64,000 bases of DNA. Source: Cyclobacteriaceae bacterium (GTDB lineage: Bacteria > Bacteroidota > Bacteroidia > Cytophagales > Cyclobacteriaceae). The stretch is from assembly GCA_016787605.1 (NCBI GenBank), contig JAEUUE010000124.1, positions 32,346 to 96,345 on the forward strand. Direction: 5' to 3'. Numbering within the stretch: position 1 is the stretch's first letter; the number at the start of each line of letters is the position of its first letter. A model generated the notes under the pieces. It was given only the letters and a program-made list of their open reading frames with translations, was not told the origin of the DNA and did no database searches. Both the position numbers and the translations under genes were made by a program. Below, piece by piece: positions 51,885-60,028 of the stretch.

Positions 51885-52553
51885 TTACCCTAATTTAAAA
51901 TGGATAGGGAGGGTTAGTCGTTGACGAACCGGTTTCCCACGTTGCTTGCCCGGTTTCCATTTGGGCGATGACGCAAGCACCTTTATCGCCAATTCATCGC
52001 AGCCCCCGCCAATGCCTTTCACGACACGTATTCCGGTAAGGGTGCCGTCCTTCTCTACAACAAATTCGAGGAACACCCGCCCTTCAATTCCAATGCGACG
52101 AGCAACGACGGGATACTTTCCCTTCATTTGATTCTTGATATGAGCATAGAAGACGCTGAGGCCCCCGATTGGGCTGGCGGGCTCTTCCACGACAATGAAC
52201 TCTATGTCCGGTTCTTCTTCCGGTGGTTCGACGGGCAGCGGAGACGGAATTTCCGCCAAGGGCTCATCCAGATCAAAAACGGGCGGTGTGATGGACTCTG
52301 GCTCGTCTTCTTGTTGCTCAATCAGGACAATGGGCCGCGGCGCAGGTCTTGGCACCGGGGTTTTCATTACCGGCACTTCGATAATTTCCGTAACGTCCAT
52401 TCGGTCTGCACCCCGTAGGTCCATGAGGGGCTGCCGATAAGACTTCCACTCAAAGGCCATCGCGATGAGCGAGAGGGAAAGAAGAAATCCAAGACTGCGA
52501 AAAAGTGGGGTTAGCCTGGCCAATTCTTTTCCGGGTGATTTTTTGTCTTCCAT
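51885..52553 (-). CDS. Energy transducer TonB (paralogue 1)
   Basis: 222 residues. A single N-terminal membrane helix (LFRSLGFLLSLSLIAMAFEW) is followed by a Pro/Glu-rich periplasmic linker (VPRPAPRPIVLIEQQEDEPES, PLPVEPPEEEPD). The TonB C-terminal domain (about 130-222) contains ARRIGIEGRVFLEFVVEKDGTLTGIRVVKGIGGGCDELAIKVL and PVRQRLTLPIHFKLG. It couples the proton motive force to outer-membrane receptors. It is paralogous to the gene at 52680-53354, which a strong terminator separates, so both are probably expressed independently. Confidence 0.94.
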   Translation of the reverse strand: MEDKKSPGKELARLTPLFRSLGFLLSLSLIAMAFEWKSYRQPLMDLRGADRMDVTEIIEVPVMKTPVPRPAPRPIVLIEQQEDEPESITPPVFDLDEPLAEIPSPLPVEPPEEEPDIEFIVVEEPASPIGGLSVFYAHIKNQMKGKYPVVARRIGIEGRVFLEFVVEKDGTLTGIRVVKGIGGGCDELAIKVLASSPKWKPGKQRGKPVRQRLTLPIHFKLG

Positions 52554-52627
52554 AGCCGAAGGGTTTTATAGCATAATCCTTTCCCTGAGGATTCGTCACC
52601 CCCATGATTTCCATAATCAAGGGTCAA

Positions 52628-52659
52628 AAAAAAAGACCCCACCTTTTTGGCGGGGTCTT
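52628..52659 (-). terminator. Strong rho-independent terminator after TonB paralogue 2
   Basis: On the minus strand an 8-bp stem AAGACCCC/GGGGTCTT (52659-52652 with 52640-52633) and an 11-nt loop are followed by nine T residues. This is the clearest intrinsic terminator in the window. Confidence 0.92.
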
Positions 52660-52679
52660 CTTGAAAGCGGGAGAACGAA

Positions 52680-53354
52680 TTATCCCAGCTTGAAAATGAT
52701 GGGAAGTGTATAGCGCTGACGTACGGGTTTACCGCGCTGCTTGCCGGGATTCCAGGGGGGTGCGGATTGCACGATACGAACGGCTTCTTCATCGCAACCG
52801 GCGCCAATGCCTTTGATGGCTCGTACTTCCGTGAGGGTGCCATCCTTGGCAATCACAAACTCTACGAACACGCGGCCTTCAATGCCCATACGGCGGGCCT
52901 GGGGAGGATATTTGATTTTATCGCTGACATACTTGTAGAAGGCAGCCATTCCACCTTTGGGTGAAGCCGACTCTTCTACGATGGTAAACACCTCGTCTGT
53001 TTCCTCTTTGGGTTCCTCGGCCTGGACGACGATTTCTTCAATCTTCGTCTGGTCAGTGACCTCCACGTCGAGGTTTACCTTGATGTCTTCCTTGATTTCT
53101 TCTTCATCCGGCACCTCGACTACCTGGGGCTGCTGCACCTGGGGAGGGGGTGGCGGGGGTTGTTCCGTAGGAGGAACCTCCATCGTTTCTTCGAAGGTGT
53201 TGATGTTCTTGCCTTGCAGATCGGCAATTTGCTCATCATAGGTTTTGTGCTCGAAAGCCATCACCACGAGCCCCATCGTCACCAGCAGACCGATGCTGAA
53301 GAACAAGTTGGATTTCTTGCTCAAATCGGCGCTATCTGTCTTCTTCGCTTCCAT
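52680..53354 (-). CDS. Energy transducer TonB (paralogue 2)
   Basis: 224 residues. Membrane helix LFFSIGLLVTMGLVVMAFEHKTY, then a linker with a polyproline stretch (TEQPPPPPPQVQQPQVVEVPDEEE) and acidic repeats. The TonB C-terminal domain is IKYPPQARRMGIEGRVFVEFVIAKDGTLTEVRAIKGIGAGCDEEAVRIVQSAPPWNPGKQRGKPVRQRYTLPI. It has a good promoter upstream and a strong terminator downstream, so it is monocistronic. The linker differs strongly from paralogue 1 while the C-terminal domains are close, suggesting division by receptor or expression rather than mechanism. Confidence 0.95.
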   Translation of the reverse strand: MEAKKTDSADLSKKSNLFFSIGLLVTMGLVVMAFEHKTYDEQIADLQGKNINTFEETMEVPPTEQPPPPPPQVQQPQVVEVPDEEEIKEDIKVNLDVEVTDQTKIEEIVVQAEEPKEETDEVFTIVEESASPKGGMAAFYKYVSDKIKYPPQARRMGIEGRVFVEFVIAKDGTLTEVRAIKGIGAGCDEEAVRIVQSAPPWNPGKQRGKPVRQRYTLPIIFKLG

Positions 53355-53385
53355 CTTTTTCTCGATTTTCTAGGTTTTAGGATTT

Positions 53386-53413
53386 CAAATATAGTAACAG
53401 AATCCAGTTCCAA
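53386..53413 (-). promoter_or_regulatory. Promoter of TonB paralogue 2
   Basis: Minus strand: TTG (53413-53411), 17 nt, TATATTTG (53393-53386), an exact -7 match, 31 nt before the ATG. Confidence 0.6.
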
Positions 53414-53459
53414 GCATTTCGTCACATAAAAGGCCAAAAATCCTCAAAAAGGGCCAATT

Positions 53460-54200
53460 TTATTTGCGGCTGCCGTAAAAGAGGGTAAAATACACGGTCG
53501 GGAACACCGCCTTGTTTTCGGCGGTAGGCATCAGGACTATCGTATTGAAGTAGCTGTCCAGGAGGAAGCCCAGCTCAAAGCCGGTCACGGAGCTTTTTAC
53601 CGCGCCCAGTTCGAAGGCCAAACCCAGTTTGAGGTTGACGCCCATCTGGATGGTTGATTCCCCCAGTCCCTCAAAGAGATTCCCGGTGCCCAAGATGTTG
53701 TCGAAACGGTGCTCCGGGTTGTTGGGATTGTACTGCTCATGGACGGTATTGAAGAAACTTCTGTCCACCATTCGTTCAATGTAATAGGGAGCCACGATTC
53801 CAATGCTGGGGCCTATGGCGGCAACAGCCTTTATTTCAACCCCCTGCTGGGGGGCCTTGTCGAAAAGGATGTAATCCCTACCATACTGAAGACGGAATGA
53901 GTAGAGGTAGTTACTTTTTCCAAAAATGAAGTAGTTCCCGGAGGCGCGGGCCGGCTGGCGGGTCTCCTGCGAATGCTTCACATTCATGATCTCCAGCCCA
54001 AAGGTTTCAAAAAGCCGCTCGTCGAGTTTTCGTGACTTCTTGAATACAAACCCGCCAATGAGTCCGCCGGAAGAGTTCTTGTTGATCCCCCAGATAAATT
54101 CAGAGTTGTATTCGTAAGAATCCTGGGTCTGGCCCCATGAACGAGTAGCCCCCGCCAGGAAAAGAAATACTGCAAGTCCAAGAATTGCGCAACTACGCAT
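53460..54200 (-). CDS. Outer-membrane barrel-like exported protein, unknown family
   Basis: 246 residues from the ATG at 54200 (a GTG at 54209 is possible). MRSCAILGLAVFLFLAGATRSWGQ is a signal peptide. The mature part has repeating amphipathic strands (SEFIWGINKNSSGGLIGGFVFKKSR, NYLYSFRLQYGRDYILF, VKAVAAIGPSIGIVAPYYIER-like, IQMGVNLKLGLAFELG, VFPTVYFTLFYGSRK), with an aromatic near the C-terminus as in barrels. No family is recognised with confidence. It is divergent from the second OsmC gene across a small palindrome. Confidence 0.75.
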   Translation of the reverse strand: MRSCAILGLAVFLFLAGATRSWGQTQDSYEYNSEFIWGINKNSSGGLIGGFVFKKSRKLDERLFETFGLEIMNVKHSQETRQPARASGNYFIFGKSNYLYSFRLQYGRDYILFDKAPQQGVEIKAVAAIGPSIGIVAPYYIERMVDRSFFNTVHEQYNPNNPEHRFDNILGTGNLFEGLGESTIQMGVNLKLGLAFELGAVKSSVTGFELGFLLDSYFNTIVLMPTAENKAVFPTVYFTLFYGSRK

Positions 54201-54215
54201 GGTGGCCACTTTCGT

Positions 54216-54227
54216 GCTAAATTTAGC
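54216..54227. promoter_or_regulatory. 12-bp palindrome in divergent promoter region
   Basis: GCTAAATTTAGC is a perfect palindrome between the barrel gene (ATG 54200) and the OsmC gene (ATG 54264). Each strand contains TAAATTTA, one base from the -7 consensus, so it may be a bidirectional -7 element or an operator. Confidence 0.4.
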
Positions 54228-54263
54228 GGTTAAACCAAGAACGCAAAATTAATCGTTTTCCAT

Positions 54264-54677
54264 ATGGCAACCATGACAGGACTTTACCTGGGGGGATTGC
54301 GCACCGAGGATACCCACCTCAAAAGCGCAAACAAGGTGATTACCGATGCTCCTCCCGACAATAACGGGAGGGGAGAAGCCTTCAGCCCCACCGACCTTGT
54401 CTGTGCCGCCCTTAGCAGTTGCATGATGACGCTGATGGGTATTCTTGCGGAACGTGAAAAAATCGACCTCACCGGGATGACTTCATCCATCACGAAAATC
54501 ATGGCTTCTAATCCCCGGCGCATTGAGGAAATCCAGATTGTTTTTCGTCACCCCCAGCTGAAGGCCACGCCGGAACAGCGAAAAAAATTAGAGCACGCGG
54601 CCAGGACTTGTCCGGTGGCACTCAGTTTGTCAGAAAACCTTCGCCAGACTGTAAGCTTTGATTTCGGGGATCAGTAG
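54264..54677 (+). CDS. OsmC family protein (second copy in window)
   Basis: 137 residues. The redox cysteines are Cys53 (AALSSCMMTLMGILAE) and Cys116 (ARTCPVALSL), with an extra Cys47. SANKVITDAPPDNNGRGEAFSPTDLV is the OsmC substrate-loop region. It belongs to a different subgroup from the gene at 15406-15816 and is not in an operon with other stress genes. Its 3' end overlaps the convergent repeat-protein gene by 7 nt. Confidence 0.93.
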   Translation: MATMTGLYLGGLRTEDTHLKSANKVITDAPPDNNGRGEAFSPTDLVCAALSSCMMTLMGILAEREKIDLTGMTSSITKIMASNPRRIEEIQIVFRHPQLKATPEQRKKLEHAARTCPVALSLSENLRQTVSFDFGDQ

Positions 54678-57421
54678 GCCCAGAGGCCTTTCTCCCGCTT
54701 ATCGTACTGGAGCTTCTTGCCCTTGTCCTTCACGCTGGAAGGTTGATTGCCGCTTTTGTTGAACATCTTCTCCCAGAAGAGCTTCACGTTGGTGAGGAAA
54801 CTGCGTTCTTCTTTCACATTATCCTCTTCACTGTGTGCAAACTTGGCATCGGGATGCATGCCGCTGACCGAGACCTTGCGCATTTTCACATTACCCTGGT
54901 AGTCGCGAATGCGCGCCTCTGCCTTGCCGGGCGCAATCACTTTGCGGGCATCGGCGGAACTGGAAGGATTGTGCCGGTAGTTCCAGTAAACTTTCATGTT
55001 CCGTGAATACTCGCTCGCCTTTACGGTGGCTTTCGCCGGCGCAACGCCGGGCAACGCGTCCGGGCTGGCGTTTTTCTTCCGGGAGTAGTTTCCTTCTTTG
55101 ACTTTTACTTGCAGTCCTTCCGTGGCGCCTACTGTGGCCGGAGGTGACTTGGACAACGCACTTTCATTGTTGTTCCACAGGACGCCACTCACGGTACCTC
55201 CTCCTTTGAGCGGCCGCTTGGCCTTGGTGCGGCCGGAAAAATCGGCGCCGCCCGAGGTGGCCGGAGGGTTTCTGGCGATCGCGCTTTCATTGTTGTTCCA
55301 CAAAACACCACTCACCGTGCCGCCGCCTTTGAGCGGTCGCTTGGCCTTGGTGCGGCCGGAAAAATCAGCACCGCCCGAAGTAGCCGGAGGATTTCTGGCA
55401 ATGGCGCTTTCATTGTTGTTCCACAGGACGCCACTCACGGTGCCTCCGCCTTTGAGCGGTCGCTTGGCCTTGGTGCGTCCTGAAAAATCAGCACCGCCCG
55501 AGGTGGCCGGAGGATTCGTGGCGATCGCGCTTTCATTGTTGTTCCAGAGTACGCCACTCACTGTACCTCCACCCTTGAGAGGACGTTTGGTCTTTACCGT
55601 TCCTGAAAAGCCGGCGCCATCGTTCGTAAAACCCCTGGCCAATGCCCGCTTGTTCTTGCCCAGGCTTCCTTCCCCCTGGTTGGTGAAACCGGATCCCCAG
55701 GCCATGAAGCCGGAATAACCCACCCCCCCTGCCTGGAATGCCCTGCCTCCACGTTTGATTCTTCCGGAGTAGCCTACATAATCGGTGTTGAATCCGCGAG
55801 ACCTGCGCAAATTTCCTGAGTACCCCGCGCCCTGTTTGGAGAATCCGACGGCGCCCCGCTTCATGGATCCCGAGTAGCCGACATAGTCACCGCCAAATCC
55901 TTTGGATCGCTTGAGGTTTCCGGAATAGCCCGCATAATCAGTATTGAAGCCCCGGGTCCGCCGTTGATTCCCTGCATAATTGGCACCCTGAGGGCTGAAG
56001 CCAGGACGGTCGCCTCGCTTCATGAAGCCGGAATACCCAAAACCGCTGGGGCTGAATTGGCTGAGGTCACTGCGTCTTACATTTCCTGAGTAGCCGACAT
56101 AATCACCGCGAAAGCCCTTGGACCGTCGGAGGTTGCCGGAATATCCTGCTCCGCCACGGCCAAAGCCACGTCCTGCGCGGATGTTGCCTTGGTACCCGGC
56201 GCCGTCCCGCGTAAAGCCGCGCCCTGCCTTCAGATTGCCTTTATACCCCGCGCCGGCGCGGGCAAATCCGCGTCCTGCAATCAGGTTGCCCGCGTAGCCG
56301 TATTCAGGAGTTCGCGGTACACGGTCCTTCGGACGCACACCGCGGAATCGTTTATTGAAAATATCAGACATTGAGGAAGCTCCTATTCCAGGTTCAGCCG
56401 CCGCAAGTCGCTTCGGCGTTCGGTCTTTGTAAGGACGCGGGCTGCGTACAGGCCAGCCGGCTACATCCCCTTTCCAACTTTGATTGCCCCGGCGGGTAGC
56501 CGTGCGATAGCCGGAGACTTGACCTTTCTGTCCCCGGTCATCGGTCGGTCGCCGGTCGAAGTATTGGAGGGAATCGCGGCCAACGAGTCCGGCTACCGGT
56601 GACCTGTAATTGCGTGTGCGAAGCGGCCCACCCGTAAGGTCGGTGGTGACAGCCTTTTCCTTCTTCTGGTATTTTCCCCAATACACATTTTTTCTTCCTC
56701 GCTGAACGTAAGGTTTGCTCCGGGAGGACGGAAAGAATCGCGGCTGGGAGCCACCGGTACGGGGAGGCTTGCTATATCGCTGCACTTTCGCCACCTGGCT
56801 GCGGTTGGAATAAGTCTTTACGCCGGTCTTGGATTTGCGTTTGTAGTAAGATACATACGGTCCCCGCTGGGAATAAGTGTTCTTGATGGTTCCGGTTGCG
56901 CTTTGATTGCGAAGAGGCTCATGCTGCAATCCTCCGGTCCATGCCCTCTCTTGAGCCCTTGGCTTGTGTTGGACGAAACGTGTTCCTTTAATGGTGCGTC
57001 GGTACACCGGTGGTTTTTCCTTGGGTCGCTTTTGCGCGTAACGCACATAAGGCCCTTTGTGAGGATATACATTGGAGCGCGCCGCATCCTGTCCGGTAGG
57101 GCGCAATCGCTTCATCCGGTAACCGGAGACGTCCCCTTTCCATGCCCGAACACGACTTTCGCGCGGAGCCCGGGTAAAGGTTCGTCCTCGTGGAGGAGCG
57201 GGCCTTTCTTCGACGCGTTCGGGTCGCTTTCTGGATGTGGAGGGTTGGCGATATTGAGCATTCGCGCGATTCGCCGATGAGTTACCCTGGGTACGCAGTC
57301 GTCGCCCCGCGATGTCGCGCGTCGAACTTTTCTCTTTTCGTTTGAACGATTTGCTTTTGGTTTCCTTAACCTGGCGCTGGTTGCCCAACGGGCGGTCACC
57401 CTTGGTGTTTTGAGCCATCAC
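54671..57421 (-). CDS. Giant basic Tyr/Gly-rich repeat protein, probably exported, unknown family
   Basis: 916 residues from the first ordinary start (GTG 57421/ATG 57418, MAQNTKGDRPLG). Residues 1-370 are Arg/Lys/Pro-rich with recurring phrases (GDVSGYRM, GPYVRY, GPYVSYY, LTGGPLRTR, GDVAGWPVR). Residues 375-605 hold about twelve 17-19 residue units such as GYSGNLKRSKGFGGDYV, and residues 605-768 four 41-residue units beginning FSGRTKAKRPLKGGG. The tail has degenerate YSRNMK/YQGNVK copies and ends in a charged segment. Very high pI, Cys-free as far as I see. Upstream in frame, 57475-57422 encodes AKSFCLVLLCLLFAAPGVMAQ-like residues, a typical signal peptide, but only CTG codons could start it. 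Surface adhesin, matrix or filament roles are guesses. Confidence 0.8.
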   Translation of the reverse strand: MMAQNTKGDRPLGNQRQVKETKSKSFKRKEKSSTRDIAGRRLRTQGNSSANRANAQYRQPSTSRKRPERVEERPAPPRGRTFTRAPRESRVRAWKGDVSGYRMKRLRPTGQDAARSNVYPHKGPYVRYAQKRPKEKPPVYRRTIKGTRFVQHKPRAQERAWTGGLQHEPLRNQSATGTIKNTYSQRGPYVSYYKRKSKTGVKTYSNRSQVAKVQRYSKPPRTGGSQPRFFPSSRSKPYVQRGRKNVYWGKYQKKEKAVTTDLTGGPLRTRNYRSPVAGLVGRDSLQYFDRRPTDDRGQKGQVSGYRTATRRGNQSWKGDVAGWPVRSPRPYKDRTPKRLAAAEPGIGASSMSDIFNKRFRGVRPKDRVPRTPEYGYAGNLIAGRGFARAGAGYKGNLKAGRGFTRDGAGYQGNIRAGRGFGRGGAGYSGNLRRSKGFRGDYVGYSGNVRRSDLSQFSPSGFGYSGFMKRGDRPGFSPQGANYAGNQRRTRGFNTDYAGYSGNLKRSKGFGGDYVGYSGSMKRGAVGFSKQGAGYSGNLRRSRGFNTDYVGYSGRIKRGGRAFQAGGVGYSGFMAWGSGFTNQGEGSLGKNKRALARGFTNDGAGFSGTVKTKRPLKGGGTVSGVLWNNNESAIATNPPATSGGADFSGRTKAKRPLKGGGTVSGVLWNNNESAIARNPPATSGGADFSGRTKAKRPLKGGGTVSGVLWNNNESAIARNPPATSGGADFSGRTKAKRPLKGGGTVSGVLWNNNESALSKSPPATVGATEGLQVKVKEGNYSRKKNASPDALPGVAPAKATVKASEYSRNMKVYWNYRHNPSSSADARKVIAPGKAEARIRDYQGNVKMRKVSVSGMHPDAKFAHSEEDNVKEERSFLTNVKLFWEKMFNKSGNQPSSVKDKGKKLQYDKREKGLWAY
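55138..55629 (-). repeat. Four tandem 123-bp repeats inside the repeat-protein gene
   Basis: Unit boundaries at 55138, 55261, 55384 and 55507 give an exact 123-nt (41-codon) period. The three central copies differ at few positions. The fourth (N-terminal in the protein) has diverged. Near-identity at DNA level implies recent duplication or ongoing homogenisation. Confidence 0.93.
55610..56299 (-). repeat. About twelve 51-57 bp coding repeats (GYSGN units)
   Basis: Each unit encodes G-Y-(S/A/K/Q)-G-(N/F/S/R) followed by a basic patch and G-F. Spacing is mostly 17 residues, with 18-19 residue variants. DNA identity is lower than in the 123-bp block, so this array is older. Confidence 0.85.
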
Positions 57422-57587
57422 CCCCGGGGCGGCAAAAAGCAGACAAAGCAGGACGAGGCAAAATGATTTTGCCAGCCACGAGGCAGGGGTAGTGCTATGG
57501 TTGTACCCGGTTTTCAGACGAGGGAATAAATCAGGCTAAATTACACAAAAGCGTGGATTTCAGCCCTCTATGACTTCCCGGCCCGCC

Positions 57588-59564
57588 TTAGTAACCGGCC
57601 AGTCTCTCGATCGCGGCCCGTAAGCGAATCTTCGGCAGAAAATTGTTCTCGAGCGTCGGTGCGAAAGGAATTGGGGTGTCCAGCCCGGCTACCCGAAGTA
57701 CGGGGGCATCGAGGTGCTCGAAAAGATGCTCACTGATCCACGCGCTGATCTCGCCACCGATGCCGCCGGTCAGTGTGTCTTCGTGAAGGATAAGCACACG
57801 GTTCGTTTTCCTCACGGTGTCGGATACGGCCTCTTTGTCCCATGGAAGCAGTGTGCGGAGGTCTAGAATGTCGGCGCTTATCTCCGGCATGGCGTCGAGG
57901 ATTTCGGCGGCCCAATGAACTCCCATACCATAGGTGATGATGGAGAGCTGTGATCCCTCCCGCGTCAGCGCCGCCTTTCCCACTTCGACCTGGTAGTAGC
58001 CATCAGGGACCTGTCCTTTGATGGACCGGTACATCAATTTGTGTTCGAAGTAGAGATAGGGATTGGGGTCATCCAATGCCGCACACAACAGTCCTTTGGC
58101 ATCGTAGGGATTGGAGGGGTAAACAATTTTCAGACCGGGTGTATGAAAAAACCAGGCTTCGTTGCTTTGCGAATGAAAAGGCCCTGCAGCCGTTCCGGCG
58201 CCAGTAGGCATGCGGACAACGACATCGGCGGCTTGGCCCCAGCGCCAATGGGTTTTGGCCAGGTTGTTGATAATCTGGTTGAATCCTTCGGTGACAAAAT
58301 CGGCGAACTGCATTTCCACCATGGCCTTCATTCCTTTGATGGAGAGGCCAAGCCCCGCCCCGACGATGGCGGATTCACAGAGAGGAGTGTTTCGAACCCG
58401 GTCCTTTCCGAATCGCTCCACAAATCCTTCGGTGATCTTGAAGACACCGCCATACTCAGCAATGTCCTGTCCCATCAGCACCAGGTTATCATGACGTTCC
58501 ATGCTCTCGCGAAGTCCATCGCTGATGGCATCAATGAATCGCTTCTCAGAAGTTTTTTCAGCCGGCGCCGTGACCTGAGGTTCATATGGGGCAAATAGAT
58601 CCTGAAGTTCGGTTTCTGCATCCGGTGCCGGGTGTGTTTCTCGGAAGGCCACCTCAAGCCCGGCTTCAATTTCCTGCTTGATTCTCTTCCGGATTGCGTC
58701 TACCGACTTCTTGTCCAGGATCTTCTCCTTAACCAGGAAGTCCTCAAAGTTTTGAACCGGATCCTTCTTCCCCCATTCTTCCATCAGCTTCTTGGGAACG
58801 TACTTGGTGCCCGAGGCCTCTTCATGACCCCGCATGCGGAAGGTCAGGCATTCGAGCAGTACCGGGCGCGGTGACTTGCGCAGTTTTTCGGCCAGGTTGC
58901 GCACGGTATCGTACACCTCAAGAATGTTGTTTCCATCGACCTGGATGCCTTCCATTCCGTAGCCGATCGCCTTGTCAATGAATTGCTTGCAGCGGAATTG
59001 CTCCTGGCTGGGCGTCGATAAACCATATCCGTTGTTCTCGACCACAAAAATTACCGGCAGGTCCCACACGGCGGCTACATTCAGCGCTTCATGGAAATCA
59101 CCTTCGCTGGTGCCTCCGTCTCCGTTGAACACCACGGTTATCTTTTTCTCTTTACGCAGTTTGGTGGCAAGTGCAATGCCGTCGGCGACGCCATTCTGGG
59201 GACCCAGGTGGGAGATCATCCCGACGATGTGATGTTCATTCGTGCCAAAATGGAAGGAACGATCGCGGCCCTTCGTATAACCCATGGCCGTCCCTTGCCA
59301 TTGCGCAAAGAGGCGATCAAACGGAAGCTTACGCCCGGTGAAAACCCCCAGGTTGCGATGCATGGGCAGAATATACTCATCGGGTTGAATGGCCTGGGTG
59401 ATTCCCACCGCGATAGCTTCCTGGCCGATGCCACTGAACCATTTGCTGATCCGGTTTTGCCGAAGGAGAATGAGCATCTTTTCTTCGATCATTCTCGGGC
59501 GAAGCAATTCCTCGTAGAGATTCAGCAGTATATCGTCGGAATATTTTTTGCGATTGAATTTCAT
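57588..59564 (-). CDS. Fused alpha/beta 2-oxoacid dehydrogenase E1 component
   Basis: 658 residues. Residues 1-330 are the E1-alpha type: FSGIGQEAIAVGI, HRNLGVFTG, and the TPP motif GDGGTSEGDFHEALNVAAVWDLPVIFVVENN. Residues 345-658 are the E1-beta type: FIDAISDGLRESMERHDNLVLMGQDIAEYGGVF, MVEMQFADFVTEGFNQIINNLAK, and HEDTLTGGIGGEISAWISEHLF. It decarboxylates a 2-oxoacid (pyruvate or branched-chain) with thiamin diphosphate and passes the acyl group to E2 lipoyl. Single-chain E1 is common in Bacteroidota. No E2 or E3 gene is nearby. Confidence 0.95.
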   Translation of the reverse strand: MKFNRKKYSDDILLNLYEELLRPRMIEEKMLILLRQNRISKWFSGIGQEAIAVGITQAIQPDEYILPMHRNLGVFTGRKLPFDRLFAQWQGTAMGYTKGRDRSFHFGTNEHHIVGMISHLGPQNGVADGIALATKLRKEKKITVVFNGDGGTSEGDFHEALNVAAVWDLPVIFVVENNGYGLSTPSQEQFRCKQFIDKAIGYGMEGIQVDGNNILEVYDTVRNLAEKLRKSPRPVLLECLTFRMRGHEEASGTKYVPKKLMEEWGKKDPVQNFEDFLVKEKILDKKSVDAIRKRIKQEIEAGLEVAFRETHPAPDAETELQDLFAPYEPQVTAPAEKTSEKRFIDAISDGLRESMERHDNLVLMGQDIAEYGGVFKITEGFVERFGKDRVRNTPLCESAIVGAGLGLSIKGMKAMVEMQFADFVTEGFNQIINNLAKTHWRWGQAADVVVRMPTGAGTAAGPFHSQSNEAWFFHTPGLKIVYPSNPYDAKGLLCAALDDPNPYLYFEHKLMYRSIKGQVPDGYYQVEVGKAALTREGSQLSIITYGMGVHWAAEILDAMPEISADILDLRTLLPWDKEAVSDTVRKTNRVLILHEDTLTGGIGGEISAWISEHLFEHLDAPVLRVAGLDTPIPFAPTLENNFLPKIRLRAAIERLAGY

Positions 59565-59580
59565 GGGATGGGTGAAAAGG

Positions 59581-59588
59581 CAAAAATA
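59581..59588 (-). promoter_or_regulatory. Predicted -7 box of E1 gene
   Basis: Minus-strand TATTTTTG (59588-59581) ends 16 nt before the ATG at 59564. A matching -33 element is not obvious. Confidence 0.45.
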
Positions 59589-59626
59589 CTCACCCCGGCG
59601 GGATAAGGGGAATTTTCGGACCTAAT

Positions 59627-60028
59627 TCAATCCATGAAACGGTCACCGACTTCCTCGGCAGGCCTTTCGCAAGCATCGCTCCGGCCAAACCACCGGTACC
59701 GGTAGCGGGCCACCACATCGTATACCTTATCCCTGATAAACGGCGGGACTATCACGAAGGCATAGAAGAGGGGCCAGCCTCCGGACAATTGCCGGGCGAT
59801 ACGAAGGGCTGCTGTCGATCGCGTGTAAGCCCGGTTGCCTTCGATCAGTACGACCGTGTCGATGCCGGGCGTCAGGTCAGGAAAGGCACGAAGTCGGTCC
59901 TGGCCCGCCGGCGATTGAAGGAAACCAAAACGGAATTTCCGGTGAGGGTCTCTTTTGATAATAAACCTGACAAAGCCCTGGCAAAGATGGCACACGCCAT
60001 CGTAGAGGATAAGGGCTGGCTCAGCCAC
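59627..60028 (-). CDS. DCC family thiol-disulfide oxidoreductase-like protein (DUF393)
   Basis: 133 residues from a GTG at 60028. The frame also has an ATG at 60076, but that would overlap the upstream gene by 56 nt, whereas the GTG overlaps by 8 and gives the family's short N-terminus. The signature is ALILYDGVCHLCQGFVRFII, with Cys13 and Cys16. Further marks are FLQSPAGQDRL, STAALRIARQLSGGWPLFY, and VARYRYRWFG. DCC proteins are thioredoxin-fold-like and of unknown function. It is last gene of the rpmH-rnpA-S41-tsaB-DUF2480 run. Confidence 0.88.
   Translation of the reverse strand: MAEPALILYDGVCHLCQGFVRFIIKRDPHRKFRFGFLQSPAGQDRLRAFPDLTPGIDTVVLIEGNRAYTRSTAALRIARQLSGGWPLFYAFVIVPPFIRDKVYDVVARYRYRWFGRSDACERPAEEVGDRFMD

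Follow-up and report, generated by a model that had tools for sequence, protein, structure and literature searches.

The window analysed here, a stretch of 64,000 nucleotides (nt) from a Cyclobacteriaceae bacterium (contig JAEUUE010000124.1, positions 32,346 to 96,345), carries on its minus strand an open frame of 954 codons (54671-57535, coordinates running from stop to stop) that encodes a strongly basic repeat protein. On the evidence of sequence comparison, the protein represents a previously undescribed family, seen only in the window's order, Cytophagales, whose members are exported, strongly cationic and share a conserved C-terminal segment of about 80 amino acids (aa). The label 'giant' chosen by the initial annotation is generous, as the open frames of relatives range from 185 to 1132 aa. 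The gene and its product, with residues numbered on a 941-aa reference (window 54674-57496), comprise the following features.

57529 to 57543, minus strand: gene-specific element TAnYTTrGCCTGwTT, here TAATTTAGCCTGATT, found by pattern search; promoter-like or leader
57515 to 57517, minus strand: likely start codon CTG, judged from the sequence, 11 nt past the 15-nt element; TTG in most relatives
57413 to 57517, minus strand: predicted Sec signal peptide (signal peptidase I type, SPI), cleaved between A and QNTKGDRP with Q at +1 (sequence; AlphaFold helix)
54674 to 57412, minus strand: mature protein, 913 aa, isoelectric point (pI) 11.1, cysteine-free, probably disordered (sequence, composition, AlphaFold)
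56618 to 56689, minus strand: conserved NVYWGK...TTD..G.PLR block of the N-terminal zone (invariant alignment columns)
55667 to 56296 (bounds approximate), minus strand: twelve GYSGN-type units of 17-19 aa (self-comparison)
55124 to 55615, minus strand: four 41-aa repeats AxFSGxxKxKRPLKGGGTVSGVLWNNNES... (self-comparison; Tandem Repeats Finder (TRF) at 55157-55594)
54674 to 54922, minus strand: conserved C-terminal segment YQGN..HPD..KLFW..K.F..QP..VK.K...YDKRE.GLW, common to relatives in other families of the order

The listing of open reading frames (ORFs) places the start at GTG 57421, inside the signal peptide; the frame extends upstream to the CTG, and the sole ATG ahead of the mature N-terminus sits at the end of the signal peptide. 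In the AlphaFold model the signal helix covers model residues 4-21, with block values of the predicted local distance difference test (pLDDT) of 75-93. The signal peptide has glutamine at +1, as the Q-rule for SPI-exported proteins of Bacteroidetes has it (PMC5837995), and an A-Q, G-Q or S-Q cleavage site was found in 24 of 25 genus sequences (the exception being L042). The 15-nt element was matched with at most one mismatch in 41 of 71 sequences and with four or five, the background level, in 10, while gene-internal stretches average 5.5 mismatches; since the pattern was derived from the very sequences it is scored on, these counts are biased in its favour. In the window's own genome the element has one match, that before the repeat gene. 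Seven genomes of the genus together contain seven exact occurrences, six located at the repeat gene and one at an extra site in G002, compared to four occurrences of a reversed control pattern; G007 has no match to the exact pattern. Among the 61 sequences with up to three mismatches, the first in-frame start past the element is TTG in 46, CTG in 7, GTG in 5 and ATG in 1, with none in 2, and it follows the element by 11-14 nt in 35 of 59 sequences. Less strictly counted, an ATG that might serve as an alternative start lies 20-48 codons ahead of the mature end in 16 of 74 sequences. A sigma-70 style scan produced four promoter-like sites where 1.2 were expected, none of them on the strand of the gene, and Rfam gave no match in 53000-60000.

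The mature part consists of 20.3% lysine plus arginine and 6.4% aspartate plus glutamate, confirming the basic character claimed in the initial annotation. The three zones it described can be seen in the translation, the N-terminal third showing GPYVxY and GDVxG phrases, and its count of about twelve 17-mers followed by four 41-mers was recovered by self-comparison. The twelve shorter units begin at residues 401, 418, 435, 452, 469, 488, 507, 524, 541, 559, 576 and 594 (spacing 17-19; lag-17 self-identity 0.31), and the 41-mers are spaced by exactly 41, any two of them sharing 31 to 41 of their 41 residues. At the DNA level, TRF detected a 123-nt array of 3.6 copies with 87% match, plus a 51-nt unit in 2.1 copies. 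Both unit types start on an aromatic-x-G phrase, Y-x-G in the 17-mers and F-S-G in the 41-mers, in agreement with the proposal that they are versions of one unit. Furthermore, [YFW]xG[ND] occurs 13 times in the window protein compared to 1.1 ± 1.0 times in 2000 residue shuffles (maximum 6), and enrichment of [YFW]xG[NDET] reaches p<0.01 for 69 of the 77 core members and 22 of the 46 divergent ones. The summed motif counts are 683 against 93.5 expected for the 77 core proteins, near-duplicates kept in, and 112 against 10.8 for the 46 divergent ones.

An AlphaFold prediction with 66 sequences returned a mean pLDDT of 44.2 and a predicted TM-score of 0.27, with 713 of 941 residues below 50. Besides the signal helix the model holds few helices, one of them at 900-913, and no strand of three or more residues. 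Such a low-confidence model does not amount to proof of disorder; the repeat protein is nevertheless likely disordered. The initial annotation had suggested a beta-solenoid or filament formed by the repeat ladder, a reading prompted by the regular unit spacing and the aromatic and glycine pattern. The strandless, low-confidence model leaves the solenoid unsupported and the wide differences in unit length and type between relatives argue against it as well, so that we regard this architecture as very improbable. What the initial annotation had named as a ground for abandoning its view, disorder together with homologues lacking the repeats, is borne out in its first half as likely and gives a mixed picture in its second: divergent relatives have neither 17- nor 41-mers, about half (22 of 46) keep the short motif, and the protein body of order-wide relatives has diverged beyond alignment. 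The initial observation is confirmed and its interpretation partly supported.

A single-sequence search was run on 39 genomes, of which 25 matched, namely the window's own and all 24 others of the genus; none of the 14 genomes from other families did. Each genus genome has one locus, except G010 with a second, partial copy on a 3-kb contig. This extra copy (L055 and L161; contig C274) may be a true duplicate or the product of a mixed bin. Separately, in two related genomes (L053 and L054; G013 and G024) the repeat-gene frame is broken towards its 3' end, perhaps by assembly error or by real decay. A profile of the 23-row alignment A1 reaches 17 of the 341 genomes of the order. With the neighbouring barrel gene (see below) used as a landmark, 40 of its loci comprising 1299 ORFs were fetched, and nine of the 40 hold an exported basic ORF with a C-terminus like that of the window protein; L203 and L204 had already been touched by A1, and the other seven were found by position. 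A profile built from core C-termini only, A8, ranks these nine ORFs top among the 1299 at barrel loci of other genera (E values of 8e-14 to 8e-4; next 0.44), whereas shuffled members gave no A8 match at E<=0.01. Alignment of A8 with four position-found members by hhalign gave 98.4% (E 8e-15).

The mixed profile A3, built with the window protein and eight of the nine ORFs among its sequences, matches 89 of the 341 order genomes at E<=0.01, its own members included; 71 fall below 1e-5, and several of the 18 weaker genomes are probably chance matches. Of 40 loci fetched for A3 matches, 38 hold a member (A3 at 1e-3). The scan of the named collection, in which 80 of 89 confirmed loci were kept, lists as carriers by record name Cyclobacteriaceae, Flammeovirgaceae, Cytophagales, Ohtaekwangia koreensis, Chryseosolibacter, Dawidia, Parachryseolinea, Pseudochryseolinea, Chryseotalea and Fulvivirga. 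The window protein carries the C-terminal 80-aa segment by which members are recognised, HP[SD]...KP[RK][YF]D..E..[IL]W. In the N-terminal zone, N270-K275, D286, G289 and R293 are invariant in A1, and D286 and G289 remain so in the 66-row alignment A2. The pI ranges over 10.4-11.8 for core members and 9.6-12.0 for divergent ones, and the 77 core proteins contain three cysteines in total beyond residue 60. Comparison of the window gene with L088 gave nonsynonymous rates (dN) of 0.23-0.47 in five regions, repeats included, and synonymous rates (dS) of 2.1-2.2 in two repeat regions, dS not being computable elsewhere; three more distant relatives gave dN 0.32-0.77 and dS 2.6-3.6 where computable. 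The low dN against dS therefore indicates that the protein sequence is constrained, repeats too.

Searching 395 genomes of the class with profile A4 produced six matches, four in the window's family (f1) and two weak ones outside the order. By our reading of their translations, the latter are SufB-like and antibiotic-biosynthesis-monooxygenase-like, and they were rejected as members. In f1 genera without the protein family, six loci after the pyruvate dehydrogenase (PDH) gene described below (g17-g22) show no long basic exported ORF under a crude filter; a seventh, L330, breaks off too early to be counted. The same filter flagged one 89-aa basic frame in L327, which we take for spurious. In family f13, a basic exported protein of 119-184 aa with the motif [YF][KS][DE][ST]HL occupies the same place (L213, L225, L230, L231, L329); judged by position and charge alone, these proteins are perhaps shrunken members.

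Pfam, NCBIfam and PDB searches yielded no significant match for the window protein, as expected from the initial statement that no known family fits. Pfam-A gave SDE2 alone (E 2.2, below its cut-off), and the C-terminal profile produced chance-level matches in the PDB, to a phosphatase peptide (E 0.31) and three ribosomal L35 sequences (about 0.9). The divergent member L277 narrowly passes two Pfam cut-offs (DUF7912, 26.6 vs 25 bits; Phage_Coat_A, 22.2 vs 20.8), which we take for a repeat artefact, no stretch being significant alone. Among other divergent members, L274, L279 and L284 had weak Pfam matches below cut-off and five had none; in NCBIfam, eight divergent members gave weak matches for L277 alone, far under the cut-offs. 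The profiles probably fail on the fast-changing body, which would explain why the members searched lack a convincing Pfam or NCBIfam entry. We recognised no paper in the open-licence literature as describing the protein, and a study of Bacteroidetes signature proteins (PMC1887533) could mention a member. The charge (pI 10-12, about 20% lysine plus arginine), together with the chance-level PDB matches, could be taken to indicate an exported cationic antimicrobial or a DNA- or phosphate-binding protein. The single syntenic place in the genus and the constraint at the protein level do not resemble the pattern of a mobile, immunity-paired weapon, and we consider this function unlikely.

The repeat gene is flanked by three genes.

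53460 to 54209, minus strand: outer-membrane beta-barrel protein (AlphaFold, Foldseek), a syntenic neighbour in conserved context whose partnership is only putative
54264 to 54677, plus strand: convergent gene whose product, from its sequence, we take to be OsmC-like
57588 to 59564, minus strand: fused 2-oxoacid (pyruvate) dehydrogenase E1 alpha-beta (Pfam E1_dh, Transket_pyr, Transketolase_C)

In the core loci, the 80 kept from the named collection, the PDH E1 gene is the immediate upstream neighbour in 60 of 69 that could be assessed; among the divergent loci it lies upstream in 19 of the 32 that could be judged (of 38); in the window just 70 nt separate it from the CTG. The OsmC-like gene and the repeat gene overlap tail to tail by 7 nt (54671-54677). 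Further along the window, at 51885-53354, two adjacent proteins carry TonB_C domains (PF03544), of which several genus loci match just one. The barrel model (pLDDT 89.8) shows about eight long strands, with OmpX, Ail, OmpA, NspA and OmpW among the best Foldseek matches (query TM-scores 0.36-0.44), and the protein belongs to no Pfam or NCBIfam family. Its gene occurs in 306 of 341 order genomes, as a single match in nearly all, with a mean column identity of 64% (64 rows), and, in a phylum sample of 296 genomes that includes the order, in 28; further families of the class have it too. The filter for basic exported ORFs, applied to eight barrel loci from outside the order, returned the barrel itself (two loci) or nothing.

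Because the barrel gene follows downstream in the same direction, no more than 2.5 kb away, in 68 of the 72 core loci that could be assessed, the repeat protein might be a client or co-factor of the barrel, acting in its assembly or gating or as a periplasmic plug. However, lineages that lack the family, also beyond the order, retain the barrel, the two genes are about 470 kb (G028) and about 27 kb (G154) apart in two genomes, and osmC intervenes on the opposite strand at 56 of 72 loci. Synteny alone would account for the pairing, and we hold a functional bond of this kind to be improbable.

In several families of the order (L226, L227, L229, L267, L268, L270, L277, L283, L294, L306 and others), a small basic lipoprotein with the motif C...CP...G[LI]..K is encoded immediately ahead of the repeat gene, clearly so in 17 of 51 loci (crude filter). 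In 13 of the 24 other genus genomes its profile gives weak matches, confined to the signal-peptide half and always on a different contig from the repeat gene. None of the 17 lipoproteins has two adjacent acidic residues after the cysteine, which suggests, by the lipoprotein export signal (LES) rule of PMC5080379, that the upstream lipoprotein faces the periplasm.

The initial annotation had further asked whether the 17-mer tracks with gliding or the type IX secretion system (T9SS). SprA was above cut-off in every one of 18 chosen genomes, of which 8 carry the family and 10 do not; the family therefore does not track the T9SS. The Pfam and NCBIfam scans produced no match of a T9SS C-terminal sorting-domain model on the window protein, and a role as T9SS cargo or component is not supported. 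The main rival to a periplasmic location is an extracellular or cell-surface matrix or adhesin, in which the protein would cross the outer membrane and form a cationic network with anionic slime or DNA. An exported, basic, repetitive and fast-evolving protein would suit such a role, as would the adjoining barrel with its resemblance to OmpX, Ail and OmpA. However, the missing T9SS tail and the missing acidic surface-export signal on the lipoprotein of other genera argue against it, and the barrel, found far more widely than the family (306 against 89 of 341 genomes, E<=0.01), is therefore no dedicated exporter. A surface matrix thus appears possible but rather doubtful, and we lean towards the periplasm.

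We tentatively propose, at less than even confidence, that the repeat protein is a periplasmic cationic scaffold binding anionic envelope polymers, because it combines a flexible cationic sticker chain, an export signal, the absence of a lipid anchor or T9SS tail and a conserved C-terminus. In such a scaffold, the protein would stay mainly in the periplasm, given its Sec/SPI signal and missing T9SS tail. The Y-x-G-(N/D) motifs would act as repeated stickers on the flexible chain, which may bind peptidoglycan, lipopolysaccharide or exopolysaccharide. The C-terminal segment would dock to a partner, in some relatives perhaps the upstream small basic lipoprotein, and the whole would work as an entropic, multivalent scaffold or tether. 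If along the chain only bulk charge and sticker density count, repeat number and sequence could therefore drift fast. How much protein is made may be set by the leader element specific to the gene, together with a weak UUG/CUG start. In a bolder version, the order would have a dedicated periplasmic cationic polymer of its own, whose condensate-like layer connects the outer membrane to peptidoglycan and which is expressed through a gene-specific leader with a conserved UUG start. This version is a long shot; if true, such a layer would be a new way of organising the Gram-negative envelope.

Several results weigh against the periplasmic scaffold. No family member was detected in 252 of the 341 order genomes even at E<=0.01, and its job must therefore be dispensable there or done otherwise. 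A8 recovers just 27 of the 38 further members (E<=0.01), the 11 most divergent resting on the mixed profile, and 24 of 46 divergent members have no significant motif enrichment. The lipoprotein is not beside the window gene and its profile has no match in the window's own genome (E<=0.1); it is therefore not an obligate partner. Of the 17 lipoproteins, 4 have one acidic residue near the cysteine, and the LES rule was established in other families of the phylum (PMC5080379). A Sec/SPI signal with Q at +1 fits proteins that cross the outer membrane equally well (PMC5837995). The export signal, the charge, the lack of cysteine, the repeats, the family membership, the usual synteny and the protein-level constraint are shown by sequence or computation, whereas the disorder is a prediction; the family itself stands on much firmer ground than the proposed mechanism.

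What was an odd repeat ORF thereby becomes a definable family: its C-terminus is conserved, its cationic repeats evolve freely, its gene order is usually kept, and some genera add a partner-like lipoprotein. If its members are envelope scaffolds, their lengths (185 to 1132 aa) offer a natural series for testing the effects of length and sticker number in a disordered protein. The element and the mostly TTG start provide a test case for non-AUG initiation in Bacteroidota.

T9SS cargo proteins of Bacteroidota are large, exported and often repetitive. The repeat protein shares these traits and the phylum, but differs in having no matched T9SS C-terminal domain and in belonging to a family that went undetected in ten SprA-carrying genomes. 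Bacteroidota outer-membrane lipoproteins offer a parallel in that some relatives encode a small lipoprotein just upstream; unlike them, the repeat protein has an SPI-type site and no lipobox. It resembles the secreted low-complexity repeat matrix proteins, a loose kind to which no sequence relation was found, in being basic, probably disordered, rich in aromatic and glycine stickers and variable in repeat number, and is set apart from them by its conserved C-terminal segment, usual synteny and gene-specific leader.

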